A DNA stretch of 5,306 nt, taken from the NCBI GenBank assembly GCA_937139605.1, contig CAKZQG010000009.1:1-5306 (forward strand), given 5' to 3'. The position numbers and the translations under genes are program-made. This document shows positions 1,286 through 5,306 of the stretch, piece after piece; the stretch's first letter is position 1, and each line of letters begins with the position of its first letter. A model generated the notes under the pieces. That model was not told the origin of the DNA. It was given only the letters and a program-made list of their open reading frames with translations, and did no database searches. The DNA is from an uncultured bacterium (GTDB taxonomy: Bacteria; DRYD01).

Positions 1286-2743
1286 CTATTTTATCTTTTC
1301 ATATTCAAAATTAATAACATTCTTTTTTACTTTATCAAACTCTATTCCTATTATGTATATTTTTTCATAATTTAGATATTTTTTGTGATACTCTTTTTCT
1401 TTAATTTGTTTTAAAGCCTTCCCTTTTTCTCTTTGATTATCTAACACCTTAAACTCCATTATAACGAAAGTTATATGAAATATATATACTATCTTTTCAT
1501 CCACCATTACAGTAATATCTATCCGCCCTTTAGATGTATTATCTTCTATTATCACATTTAATCCTGTTGTATATAACATACTATATACTGCTATTACATA
1601 ACTATATTCCTCTTTTAAATACATATAACTTATTGCACTTATTAATATCTCTATTTGTTCTTTTAATTCTTCTATTTTCTCTATTTTTAATATCTCTATT
1701 ATTTTTTCTGCTATTACATTTACCCTTGATTTTTGTTTTACTAAATTATACAATATATCTCTATTAAATGATACTCTTACCTCTTTATTCGGAAATCCTA
1801 ACTCAAATAATACCCCATTTTCACTTACCTTATAATCCTTTATTGTTAAATATCCACTTTGAAACATTATTGCTTCTATTTCTATCTCTTCTACGTCAAA
1901 TTTATTTAATAAACTCTCATCTGCTTTTATCCCTTCTAATTCCACTATATTATACTCCTTCTGTTTTATTAACTTTATTAAAAAACTTGGCGTTCCTGTT
2001 TCATACCAATAGTTCCTTATCTCTTTTTTTCTTAAATATAACAACACATCAAATGGATTATATACTTTATCAGCTAAAAAATTATACCCATTATACCATT
2101 CCTTTAACTCTTCTATATTCACATTATCCAAATACTCTTTAAAATAATATTCTAATTCTTCTTGGGTATATCCGCATATATCTCCATATTCTTTACTTAA
2201 TGAAATATCTTCTAACTGATTTAACCCACTAAAAAGAGATACTTTTGCAAATTTTGAAACCCCCGTTACTAACACAAACTTTATATATCTATCTAACCCT
2301 TTTAACACTGAATAGAAACTCTTTAATGTTTTTCTTACCTCTTCTGCTTCTTTTCTTTCTTCTATTACATCTAATATCGGCTTGTCATATTCATCTATTA
2401 ATACCACCACCTGTTTTTTATATCTCTTATCTATCTCTATTATTAAATTTTTCAGTAATAAGCCTACATGCCTTACCTCATTTTCAAATTTTATCTCGTT
2501 CCTTTCATAATTTAATCTTAATTCATCACATATTACTTCATATAATTCACTTACTGTTTTTATATCCGCTGAAAAATCTATTCTTATTACTGGGTACTTT
2601 TCATTCCAATCCCATTTATCTTCTATGTATAATCCCTTAAATAATTCTCTTTTAGATTCATATAAATATTCTATTGTTGATAATAATAACGACTTCCCAA
2701 AGCGTCTTGGTCTGCTTAAAAATATATATCCTCCACTATTCAC
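1286..2743 (-). CDS. AAA-ATPase-like protein with C-terminal PD-(D/E)XK nuclease domain (N-terminally disrupted gene)
   Basis: The 485-codon frame belongs to the family with an N-terminal AAA-ATPase-like domain (PF09820 type) and a C-terminal PD-(D/E)XK domain (PF08011/DUF1703 type). Its members are common accessory proteins of unproven role, possibly in defence or mobile-element biology. Residues 11-18 (RPRRFGKS) are the Walker A motif and 112-120 (VVVLIDEYD) the Walker B. TGVSKFAK at 160-167 is a conserved family block. G-R-I-D (406-409) and E-F-K (430-432) supply the nuclease Asp and E-x-K residues, and a KALKQIKEKEYHKKY helix follows. Residues 422-428 (FHITFVI) come from the palindromic insertion at 1460-1480. 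The GTG at 2743 has no ribosome binding site and is internal to the family domain: conserved residues (DKTKYIYEL) continue upstream to 2770. The real start was near 2884, giving about 509 residues without the insertions. As it stands, a pseudogene or a much impaired gene. Confidence 0.85.
   Translation of the reverse strand: MNSGGYIFLSRPRRFGKSLLLSTIEYLYESKRELFKGLYIEDKWDWNEKYPVIRIDFSADIKTVSELYEVICDELRLNYERNEIKFENEVRHVGLLLKNLIIEIDKRYKKQVVVLIDEYDKPILDVIEERKEAEEVRKTLKSFYSVLKGLDRYIKFVLVTGVSKFAKVSLFSGLNQLEDISLSKEYGDICGYTQEELEYYFKEYLDNVNIEELKEWYNGYNFLADKVYNPFDVLLYLRKKEIRNYWYETGTPSFLIKLIKQKEYNIVELEGIKADESLLNKFDVEEIEIEAIMFQSGYLTIKDYKVSENGVLFELGFPNKEVRVSFNRDILYNLVKQKSRVNVIAEKIIEILKIEKIEELKEQIEILISAISYMYLKEEYSYVIAVYSMLYTTGLNVIIEDNTSKGRIDITVMVDEKIVYIFHITFVIMEFKVLDNQREKGKALKQIKEKEYHKKYLNYEKIYIIGIEFDKVKKNVINFEYEKIK
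1460..1480 (-). repeat. Palindromic mini-element, short form (21 bp), in frame in ATPase-like gene
   Basis: The plus strand reads TATAACGAA, one A, then GTTATATGAAA. TATAAC and GTTATA pair as a 6-bp stem over a GAAA loop. The first nine and last eleven bases are identical to the ends of the 34-bp copy at 2771-2804. It adds seven codons, FHITFVI, between VYI and MEFKV. Family members read straight through a strand of the VYI(M/I)EFK type at this point, so the element is an insertion and not ancestral sequence. Confidence 0.75.
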
Positions 2744-2770
2744 TAATTCATATATGTACTTTGTTTTATC

Positions 2771-2804
2771 TATAACGAAGGCGTAAGCCTAATGTTATAT
2801 GAAA
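2771..2804 (-). repeat. Palindromic mini-element, long form (34 bp), disrupting ATPase-like gene
   Basis: The plus strand reads TATAACGAA, then GGCGTAAGCCTAAT, then GTTATATGAAA. Outer arms TATAAC/GTTATA pair over 6 bp, and inner arms AGGC/GCCT pair over 4 bp around a GTAA loop, with a small asymmetric bulge (GA against AAT). It lies exactly between the codons for YIYV and DKTKYI of the family N-terminus. It shifts frame by one and carries a TAG at 2789-2791. The 21-bp copy lacks the inner stem. Confidence 0.75.
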
Positions 2805-2824
2805 TACATATATATAATTTCCTT

Positions 2825-2852
2825 CTATTAATTTCTTACTATTAATTTCTTA
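2825..2852. repeat. 14-bp perfect tandem duplication
   Basis: CTATTAATTTCTTA occurs twice head to tail (2825-2838 and 2839-2852). On the coding (minus) strand the duplicate falls right after the codons for DFKKLI and moves translation into the stops TAA and TAG. One copy alone gives the family reading DFKKLIEGNYIYV, so the second copy is a lesion. Confidence 0.9.
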
Positions 2853-2892
2853 AAATCACTAATACCAATTGGTAATTTCTTTATAAAAAACA

Positions 2893-2948: not shown

Positions 2949-2976
2949 TTGAATAATTTTACTTGAATAATTTTGC
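2949..2976. repeat. Imperfect 14-bp tandem duplication at the 3' end of the kinase-repeat gene
   Basis: TTGAATAATTTTAC (2949-2962) is followed directly by TTGAATAATTTTGC (2963-2976), 13 of 14 bases identical. The right copy encodes the last residues (KLFK) and the left copy overlaps the TAA stop at 2961-2959 and continues past it. The 74 bp from here to the ATPase start region (2885-2958) holds no gene and no convincing terminator. Confidence 0.75.
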
Positions 2977-4665
2977 AGCCTTTTCTGGACTAATGCGATT
3001 TCTTTTACAGATTATCGCTTGACTTAAAGTAAATCCTGCATTTTTCCATTTTATCGCTTCACTGACATTAAACTCATTCTCTTCCCATCGCCTTGCTTCC
3101 CCTGGTTCAAATCCCTTATCTCTCCATTCCACTGCTTCACTTACATCAAATCCTGCATCTTTCCATTCTTTTGCTTTTTTTACATCAAATCCAATCACCA
3201 TCAATTCTATCGCTTCACTTACACTAAACCCAGCATCTTTCCATTCTTTTGCTTGCTCTGAATCAAAGCCTATATATTTCCATTCTAGTGCTTGACTTAA
3301 ATTAAATTCATTACTTTTCCATTCCTTTGCATTATTTAAATCAAATCCATTTTTTTTCCATTCTATTGCTTCACTTATATTAAATCCATTATATTTCCAT
3401 TTCTTTGCCTCATTTAAATCAATTCCGTTTTTTTTCAATTCTATTGCTCGTTGTAAGCTAAAATTATTTATTTTCCATTCTAATGCTTCAATTATATTAA
3501 ACCCCGCTTTTGTCCATTGATAATAAAAATTAATAACTATTATCAATATCACAACAGCAATTATTTTGGCTATATCTTTCATAACAAATATAATTGCATT
3601 TTTTATAATTATCATATCCTGATTATCCTGATTTAACTTTATTATCTCATTAGCACTATATCCTTTAGATTTAAACATTTTAGCTTGAACAGGAGTAATT
3701 CCCTGTTGTCTTAAAAGTTTAGCTTCATAAGAATTAAAACCAGATAGTATCCATTCCAATGTATCTTGTATAGAAAATCCATTTTTTTTAAATTTTATTA
3801 TCTCATCTACTGAGACTACATTCTTAATTACTTTTTTCTTTAATTTCTTAGCATCATTAAAATTAATTCCATTTTTAAACAATTTAACCGCTTGCTCTAA
3901 AGTAAAACCTAAACTAATCCATGCATTAGAATTAAAACCCTTAGATATAATATTCATCATCTCTGATAAATCCTTTATTACTTCATTACTTATCAGTTTT
4001 TTCCATTCTAATATTTCTTCTAATTGTTTTATTCCAAAATTATAAAACACTATATACTCCTTTAATGATATTTTCTTATTAATCATTTCTTCTATTTTAT
4101 TCACATCTAATTTCATTTCTAAATAGGTTTTTAAATCTTCTATAGGTATTTTTAAATCTTTAGTAAAATAAAGAACTTTCTTTAAAACTAAAGAATTATC
4201 TTCAAAAAATATAGCATCTTTAGGATTAAATCCCGCATTTTTCCAATTATATGTCAATTTTCCTGATTTCATTCCTGCTTCTATCCACTCTTTTGCCTCA
4301 CTTACACTAAATCCTTCCTCTTTAAAGGTAATCGCTACCTTGGGATCATTTACAATTTCCATCCATTCCCTTGCAGTTTTTTCTGTAAATCCTTCCCTTA
4401 ACCATTCTTCTATTTTTACTTTCTCATATTGCTCTATATCTTCATCTACATAATCTATTACTTCCTCATCATTTATCCATTTATTTACTTCCTCATATCC
4501 CCATCTTTTACTATAATCCCTGTTTAATAAATTTCTTAATAATTTTCTTATTTTTTCATCTATGTTATCGCTTATTAAAACTCCATTTGTAAATATCTGA
4601 TTCATTATTACTTGTTGCGATAAATTTTCAAAAGGATGTCTCTTTTGTATAATTTCTAATAACAC
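2959..4665 (-). CDS. Membrane protein with 13-residue tandem repeats; C-terminal part of a split Ser/Thr kinase
   Basis: This 568-codon frame stays open up to 4725, where it begins with APETFSNYFGKEIDYWALGIVLLEII, the kinase APE motif and helix F. The GTG at 4665 is therefore internal and has no ribosome site. Residues 1-64 finish the kinase C-lobe (HPF at 10-12; the Arg of subdomain XI in NRDYSKRW near 54). Degenerate 13-residue units follow at 88-153 and 249-343, for example FKEEGFSVSEAKE. About 365-382 is a single hydrophobic segment (KIIAVVILIIVINFYY), probably transmembrane. Residues 384-568 are 14 regular repeats of consensus W-K-x-x-G-F-x-x-x-E-A-x-E. By analogy with PASTA kinases the regular repeats could be an outward sensor, but similar repeats on both sides of the membrane segment make that uncertain. 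Together with 4726-5306 it was one gene. Confidence 0.8.
   Translation of the reverse strand: MLLEIIQKRHPFENLSQQVIMNQIFTNGVLISDNIDEKIRKLLRNLLNRDYSKRWGYEEVNKWINDEEVIDYVDEDIEQYEKVKIEEWLREGFTEKTAREWMEIVNDPKVAITFKEEGFSVSEAKEWIEAGMKSGKLTYNWKNAGFNPKDAIFFEDNSLVLKKVLYFTKDLKIPIEDLKTYLEMKLDVNKIEEMINKKISLKEYIVFYNFGIKQLEEILEWKKLISNEVIKDLSEMMNIISKGFNSNAWISLGFTLEQAVKLFKNGINFNDAKKLKKKVIKNVVSVDEIIKFKKNGFSIQDTLEWILSGFNSYEAKLLRQQGITPVQAKMFKSKGYSANEIIKLNQDNQDMIIIKNAIIFVMKDIAKIIAVVILIIVINFYYQWTKAGFNIIEALEWKINNFSLQRAIELKKNGIDLNEAKKWKYNGFNISEAIEWKKNGFDLNNAKEWKSNEFNLSQALEWKYIGFDSEQAKEWKDAGFSVSEAIELMVIGFDVKKAKEWKDAGFDVSEAVEWRDKGFEPGEARRWEENEFNVSEAIKWKNAGFTLSQAIICKRNRISPEKAAKLFK
2962..3516 (-). repeat. Array of 14 protein repeats of 13 residues (39 bp each)
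   Basis: Fourteen units run from the Trp codon at 3516-3514 to the end of the gene, the last being extended to 16 residues. Examples are WKYNGFNISEAIE, WKKNGFDLNNAKE and WKDAGFDVSEAVE. Trp, Lys, Gly-Phe and Glu-Ala are the most conserved positions. Units tend to alternate between an ending A-(I/L/V)-E and an ending A-K-E, suggesting a 26-residue structural unit such as a helical pair. A 22-bp block is identical at 3155-3176 and 3233-3254, 78 bp (two units) apart, which points to recent growth by two-unit duplication. Confidence 0.9.
3520..3573 (-). other. Predicted transmembrane segment of the kinase-repeat protein
   Basis: Codons here give about 18 mostly hydrophobic residues (IAKIIAVVILIIVINFYY), directly followed by the first regular 13-residue repeat. 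It is the only clear membrane-spanning stretch in the protein and separates the degenerate repeats from the regular array. Orientation is not decided by the flanking charges, though Lys residues lie just before it on the kinase side. Confidence 0.65.
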
Positions 4666-4725
4666 TATACCTAATGCCCAATAATCTATTTCTTTTCCAA
4701 AATAGTTTGAAAATGTTTCCGGTGC

Positions 4726-5306
4726 TTATCTATTGTTCCCTTAAAATGAGTAGTTATTATCTTTGATACATCTTCCTCATTTAAACTTGATATCCCAAAA
4801 TCCGTTAATACTAATTCTATGGGTTCATTTTTTCTTACTAAAATATTTTGTGGCTTTATATCCCTATGTATTATATTCTTTTTATGTAATACATTTAAAG
4901 CTTCGCTTATATGTTTTACTATAGTTTTTAGTTTTTCTATTTTTATATCTTTGTTTTTATAAAATTCTAATAAATTGCCATGTTTTATATATTCTTGAAT
5001 TTCATAATATCTTTGGGTATTTTTATCATAGCCATAAGATATAATATTTATAAAGTATTGAGGAAATTCTTGATAAAGTTCTTGAACTCTTTTAAGAATC
5101 TCAAATTTAGGTTTAAAACCTTTTCGGTATAGCTTTAAAAAATATTGATTATTGTTTTTAGGGTATTTTTATCATAGCCATAAGATATAATATTTATAAA
5201 GTATTGAGGAAATTCTTGATAAAGTTCTTGAACTCTTTTAAGAATCTCAAATTTAGGTTTAAAACCTTTTCGGTATAGCTTTAAAAAATATTGATTATTG
5301 TTTTTA
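4726..5306 (-). pseudogene. Ser/Thr protein kinase, N-terminal part, frameshifted and 5'-truncated
   Basis: In the frame covering 5159 to 4728 the translation is a eukaryotic-type (Hanks) kinase. NNQYFLKLYRKG holds the beta3 Lys (codon 5135-5133). The hinge-like QEYIKHGNLLEFY, the catalytic loop HRDIKPQN (4868-4845) and DFG (4802-4794) follow, then GTID, where the frame is lost. The expected continuation, APETFSNYFG, is in another frame from 4725, with only two bases (4727-4726) between: a loss of one, or more likely four, bases in the activation segment. Unshifted reading ends at TAG 4688-4686. The glycine-rich loop would lie beyond the window edge. The upstream copy of the 146-bp duplicate is a second break: reading through it hits TAA at 5137-5135. 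No start codon with a ribosome site is visible in this stretch. Confidence 0.8.
5015..5306. repeat. Perfect 146-bp tandem duplication at the window edge
   Basis: Positions 5015-5160 and 5161-5306 are identical over all 146 bases. The unit codes for the kinase N-lobe from the beta3 strand to YGYDKNT. Because 146 is not a multiple of three, the duplicate shifts frame and the upstream copy cannot be joined in frame to the rest. The second copy ends exactly at the last base of the window, which is what one would see if an assembler stopped inside or wrapped a repeat. Either a real duplication or a contig-end artefact. Confidence 0.9.

Follow-up and report, generated by a model that had tools for sequence, protein, structure and literature searches.

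Hairpin-forming mini-elements inserted at TA junctions in an AAA-ATPase/PDDEXK_9 gene family of an uncultured bacterium

The stretch of DNA analysed here, called the window, is 5,306 nucleotides long and comes from the draft genome of an uncultured bacterium (G000, the source genome; 1.88 Mb in 45 contigs). It carries a gene of the AAA-ATPase_like/PDDEXK_9 family (PF09820, E 1.2e-50; PF08011, E 1.4e-13) in a copy that is broken in three ways. ATA is found in place of ATG at the expected start near position 2880, where other copies have ATG; a 14-bp direct duplication is present; and an insertion at the place designated site A shifts the reading frame (Table 1). The combination of PF09820 and PF08011 is the architecture described in the literature as the DUF1703 family, whose paralogues recombine extensively in Cardinium (PMC6387759). 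PADLOC and NCBIfam searches gave no match for the host protein. Summed over all its members the family spans about 25 kb, or 1.3% of the source assembly. It is also a mosaic: the middle segment exists in at least two alternatives and the N-terminal segment in several, and copies differ in how these are combined (L010, L113-L115 and others). For comparison we used a congener (G001) and a member of a sister genus of the same family (G002); the drafts of the order that were used are 71-90% complete, and several filled copies of the gene lie at contig ends.

Two short palindromes interrupt the gene. Bases 1460-1480 read TATAACGAAAGTTATATGAAA and bases 2771-2804 read TATAACGAAGGCGTAAGCCTAATGTTATATGAAA. 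A sequence-only reading of the window had reported that these palindromes have matching ends and that both fold through TATAAC/GTTATA. Both are present at those coordinates, where the pattern TATAACGAA-N(0-30)-GTTATATGAAA gives 2 matches in the window compared to 0 expected from 200 shuffles, and both form hairpins, the 21-bp version being no more than the outer stem TATAAC/GTTATA closed by GAAA. Rfam gave no match in the window. The same reading took the palindromes to be insertions into an otherwise continuous protein. This was confirmed by other copies of the gene in the source genome, in which exact empty sites are seen, ..TATGTA^GATAAAAC.. as the counterpart of 2771-2804 and ..GTATATA^ATGGAG.. 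as the counterpart of 1460-1480. Copies of the gene in the congener have no insert at these sites.

Table 1. Features of the host gene in the window and insertion sites recognized in its paralogues. Positions refer to the window; a caret marks the point of insertion.
Feature	Position	Strand	Residues at site	Description
Host gene, pseudogene copy	1286..2880	-		AAA-ATPase_like (PF09820) + PDDEXK_9 (PF08011)
14-bp direct duplication	2826..2852	-		AGAAATTAATAGTAAGAAATTAATAG (sense strand); just upstream of site A; contains TAA and TAG
Site A element	2771..2804	+	YV^DKTKY	34 bp; TATAACGA-AGGC-GTAA-GCCT-AAT-GTTATA-TGAAA; antisense to host gene; frameshifting, between YV and DKT
Site D			KVS^LFSG	34 bp; opposite orientation
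Site B (B1, B2)			EWY^NGY	Two tandem 34-bp elements; inner stems differ
Empty site B of the window	2087..2102	-	EWY^NGY	GAATGGTAT^AATGGGTATA; element-free
Site E			FD^IEYI	36 bp
Site C element	1460..1480	+	VYI^MEF	21 bp; TATAAC-GAAA-GTTATA-TGAAA; antisense to host gene; in frame between VYI and MEF
Site C'			KV^xE (x, variable residue)	54 bp
Site F			KEY^YKKYL	36 bp; opposite orientation

A search for further copies, which the sequence-only reading had proposed, was productive. The strict pattern occurs at 30 places in the 1.88 Mb of the source genome, where the reversed control pattern had 0 matches, and it was not matched in 58 other genomes. A looser pattern together with a covariance model raised the count in the source genome to 40. 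All 40 copies are inside PF09820/PF08011 genes and none is elsewhere in the genome; this result comes from element searches that spanned whole genomes, while empty sites were examined in the one gene family. Alignment of the paralogues placed the copies, which are 21-54 bp long and occur in both orientations, at seven places in the gene, or eight sites when B1 and B2 are counted as separate insertions. If insertions were independent and uniform, the chance of all eight falling within the gene family would be ~1e-15. At every site both filled and empty (uninterrupted) paralogues were found. The site A element is present in 7 copies in the source genome, 6 of them identical, and the 21-bp element of site C in 10 identical copies. 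Site B, which is empty in the window, holds two tandem 34-bp elements in six other paralogues and a single element in one, with insert lengths of 34, 68 or 69. The filled genes lie on the contig minus strand throughout, C42 excepted, the strand of a contig being arbitrary.

Exact matches to the pattern were also returned by a scan of one genome per species (63 stretches) and by viral contigs (10). Those in the genomes of other species share no common inner stem, and none was found with an AAA-ATPase of the PF09820/PF08011 family; most of the viral matches fold poorly or differently. Both sets were taken as chance or conserved-gene matches, and the exact element family has so far been found in two genomes, those of the source and its congener.

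The general form of the element is TATAACGA, a variable paired stem with a GTA- or GTAA-type loop, GA or GAA, GTTATATG and NAA. A TG-NAA tail follows the palindrome on one side and makes it subterminal. Version F has an outer stem that is altered on both sides, to TACAAC/GTTGTA. All versions tested in the orientation of the general form gave folding z-scores of ~ -2.8 to -8.6. The inner stems differ from site to site with pairing kept by compensatory changes: in the seven versions compared, pairing holds for 93% of cells, 12 cells are double-changed, and the covariation score was reached by 0 of 500 shuffles. With seven sequences this covariation supports, short of proof, a constraint on the hairpin. 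Short AAC/GTT arms around an inner stem are also found in integron attC sites, and the elements might be regarded as degenerate versions of these. The sequence-only reading considered this less likely, and we give it next to no credence: the element has TATAAC and GTTATAT, which match neither RYYYAAC nor GTTRRRY, elements of both orientations occur within the one family of genes, and a cassette structure is lacking.

The junctions of the elements are constant. The element begins with TA, TA follows directly 3' of it in 39 of 39 copies tested, and the empty sites have one TA, which is the TA target duplication expected of a MITE of the IS630/Tc1-mariner type. The 5' base is a pyrimidine, except where another element precedes. 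The alternating TATATA that the earlier reading described as a flank of both elements is indeed there, although part of it is just the TA that follows every copy.

Movement to a new place was found in the congener. In this genome almost all of the roughly 30 copies of the gene are open, and the element family is present in two of the copies at another site (LYI^EDKW). A third element, L182 (G001:C100:10976-11011), lies inside a broken HD-domain gene whose orthologue in the source genome is intact and uninterrupted (GFSY^NVANAIKF). Since the orthologue has no insert, we take this as evidence of a true transposition to an unrelated place, and we conclude that the elements can transpose. Together with the further copies and the empty sites, this supports the earlier suggestion that the palindrome is mobile and invades coding sequences at a TA target. 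As a whole, that reading is partly supported; what it missed is the confinement to one gene family and the presence of unrelated palindromes in the same family in the sister genus (below).

A conventional MITE-like element, whose hairpin would be acted on in trans by a transposase or recombinase and inserted 5' of TA, would account for the constant 3' TA and 5' pyrimidine, the two orientations, the tandem insertion at site B and the copy in the unrelated congener gene. Confinement would then have to result from purging elsewhere or from a longer recognition sequence. We consider this explanation unlikely because many divergent gene copies share one version at one site and none is found outside the family in 1.88 Mb of AT-rich DNA, and because the element ends do not look like terminal inverted repeats. 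In addition, the Y1 (HUH) transposase domain PF01797 had 0 matches in the drafts of the source genome and the congener, each about 88% complete; on the same result an IS200/REP-type explanation is not supported.

The sister genus G002 shows the same pattern with a different sequence. Its genome had no significant match to the element covariance model. It does contain about 17 nested palindromes of the form GGGG..GGGG.CCCC..CCCC, about 21 bp long, each in a copy of the PF09820/PF08011 family (contigs C3, C5, C12, C15 and C19; L122, L123, L127-L130 and L136). Six other genomes of the order had no GGGG..CCCC palindromes. One locus, L128 (G002:C5), has a third kind of insert at residue about 171, consisting of two small hairpins, GAATGACGAAGTCATTC and TCTCGTAAGAGA.

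Filled copies of the gene are associated with damage. In the source genome inserts of 21, 36 and 54 bp preserve the reading frame and are stop-free, and those of 34 bp shift it. When the elements are set aside, a further stop, frameshift or duplication is present in 5 of 7 full-length filled copies, compared to 0 of 6 full-length empty copies (Fisher p 0.02). In the sister genus, where stops were placed by reading, lesions outside the inserts are present in 6 of 7 filled and 0 of 5 empty copies. Relaxed selection on the filled genes was considered and rejected, as the ratio of private nonsynonymous to synonymous changes is the same in filled (0.93) and empty (0.90) copies. The equal ratios suggest that inactivation is recent or has been blurred by recombination. 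They would also be expected if the filled genes were functional, with the inserts skipped by programmed translational bypassing or taken out of the RNA, as in mitochondrial byps, and the elements conserved by selection. The strong conservation of the elements and the matching bases on both sides of sites B and C fit this explanation, but extra stops, frameshifts or a lost start in the 5 of 7 full-length filled copies, the lack of a matched take-off/landing codon at site A (GTA versus ATA), the variable length of the insert at site B and the opposite orientation of the element at two sites all argue against it, and we regard it as highly improbable.

The elements are much alike and their surroundings are not. 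The mean difference between copies at the same site is 0.46% (14 of 3019 comparisons). For the host genes the difference is 27% at third, 9% at first and 6% at second codon positions. No drop in diversity of the kind that co-conversion tracts would leave was seen beside the elements, except for a slight one in the 15 bases to the right of site A. Separate ancestry of the filled genes was rejected, the between-group minus within-group distance being -0.004 (permutation p 0.57). Near-identical elements in divergent, unlinked flanks indicate that the elements were placed in, or exchanged among, genes that had already diverged, and that the flanks were not carried with them. The elements have recently spread through copies of the gene family. 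Given that filled and empty genes form one mixed sequence pool and that the family recombines, the insertions might instead be old, inherited with the gene family and kept constant by purifying selection while recombination shuffled the flanks. This is very unlikely: the inner stems are almost invariant at any one site although compensatory changes make them differ freely from site to site, the congener copies have no insert at these sites, and the filled genes are decaying.

The interpretation we prefer, with a probability of roughly 0.5, is that these are non-autonomous palindromic mini-elements that jump rarely and spread by recombination between paralogues without taking their flanks along. 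New sites would arise rarely, by insertion at pyrimidine^TA, and the element would then pass from copy to copy within a gene family whose members recombine. During strand exchange the palindrome may fold out as a hairpin that mismatch repair leaves in place, while the flanking mismatches would be repaired, with the result that the element spreads or persists minus its flanks. In yeast, the 26-bp palindromic insertion his4-lopc is poorly repaired in heteroduplex (Nag and others 1989, as cited in PMC5736917). Only a gene with many recombining copies could sustain such spread, which would explain the confinement to one family. Insertion would inactivate the copy, so that in this proposal elements accumulate in dead copies while functional ones remain without them. 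Spread by recombination accounts for confinement to a multicopy gene, for identical elements in divergent flanks and for the independent case in the sister genus.

Two observations are less easily accommodated. Passage with almost no flanking sequence needs hairpins that escape repair and flanks that do not, or else very many events. Moreover, filled copies usually have elements at most of the available sites and empty copies at none, and elements up to 1.4 kb apart co-occur in the same gene copies; free recombination alone would break up this co-occurrence unless selection keeps functional copies empty. A further possibility, which we consider quite unlikely, is that the PF09820/PF08011 proteins are themselves the drive, cutting or provoking recombination in their own gene copies at conserved motifs. 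The palindromes would then be cargo copied into the repaired gene, making it resistant, and unrelated palindromes would have been recruited independently in each lineage. If true, this would amount to a homing system in bacteria, with a hairpin of 21-54 bp as the cargo and the protein encoded by the target gene itself as the enzyme.

Minimal co-conversion might also result from copying through RNA, in which a retron-like reverse transcriptase would copy the hairpins into DNA, or use them as a donor strand, for insertion by short-homology annealing. The source genome and the sister genus, the two palindrome-rich genomes, both have a retron-like reverse transcriptase gene, and a similar idea has been proposed for yeast mitochondrial GC clusters (PMC4478555). 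On the other hand, no reverse transcriptase was found in the draft assembly of the congener, which has three element copies, a template RNA was not identified, and retron reverse transcriptases are so common that the coincidence carries little weight. We regard this route as rather improbable. The two genes, L193 (G000:C2:63625-64260) and L192 (G002:C22), encode YADN in place of YADD.

Small palindromic elements have been known for decades and, to our knowledge, the mechanism by which they move is mostly unknown. The Nostoc small dispersed repeats such as SDR5 are very small (21-27 bp), apparently mobile and bacterial, and have been reported in tandem heptamers and structural RNAs. Very small size, apparent mobility and a bacterial genome are shared with the present elements, but sequence and sites differ. 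REPs and REPINs are likewise palindromic, 20-40 bp long, present in many copies and non-autonomous; REPs, however, are extragenic, carry a GTAG or CGTC tag and need a Y1 (RAYT) transposase, whereas the elements described here are in genes. The byps of Magnusiomyces mitochondria are short hairpin insertions in essential coding genes that stay functional. The elements here are also short hairpin inserts within coding genes, but matched take-off and landing codons are lacking at site A, and most of the full-length filled genes are pseudogenes.

Rickettsia palindromic elements, palindromic repeats that are inserted in coding sequences and sometimes in frame (review PMC10969869), had been offered as a parallel by the sequence-only reading. 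The parallel is loose, an analogy and not a match. Insertion in genes, at times in frame, is common to both. Rickettsia elements are about 100-150 bp long with an internal conserved ORF and occur, mostly in frame, in unrelated metabolic genes; those described here are 21-54 bp, lack that feature, occur almost exclusively in one gene family and frequently cause frameshifts, and their full-length hosts are mostly broken rather than functional. Yeast mitochondrial GC clusters are short palindromes that may duplicate 2 bp of the target; their stems are under constraint, units merge, and the clusters are exchanged by homologous recombination (PMC4478555). Palindromic units, a 2-bp target duplication, apparently constrained stems, merger and, in the mechanism proposed above, recombinational exchange are features that the clusters (e.g. 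GC42) share with the elements here. The clusters are GC-rich, mitochondrial and found all over mtDNA, in contrast to AT-ended bacterial elements restricted to one gene family; it is the sister genus, with its GGGG..CCCC palindromes, that offers the closer resemblance to GC clusters. Closest in behaviour are the yeast mitochondrial GC clusters and, for insertion into genes, the Rickettsia palindromic elements.

Among palindromic mini-elements the present case stands out in that the elements are restricted to a single gene family whose copies recombine, and in that unrelated palindromes of a sister genus show the same restriction. It is a bacterial case in which filled and empty sites are found together in one genome, with identical elements and unlinked flanks in one gene family, and in the sister genus the pattern recurs independently with a palindrome of unrelated sequence. 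Spread of palindromes by recombination in bacteria thereby becomes directly testable. Inserts of this kind may inactivate members of the DUF1703 family, which is widespread.

Two other features of the window lie outside the host gene. Positions 2959-5306 are occupied by a protein-kinase-like gene; it contains 39-bp repeats of the EWKxxGF type in a long array and appears to be split by a frameshift near 4725. At 5012-5303 a 146-bp direct repeat, 99% identical, lies exactly at the contig end and is probably an assembly artefact.
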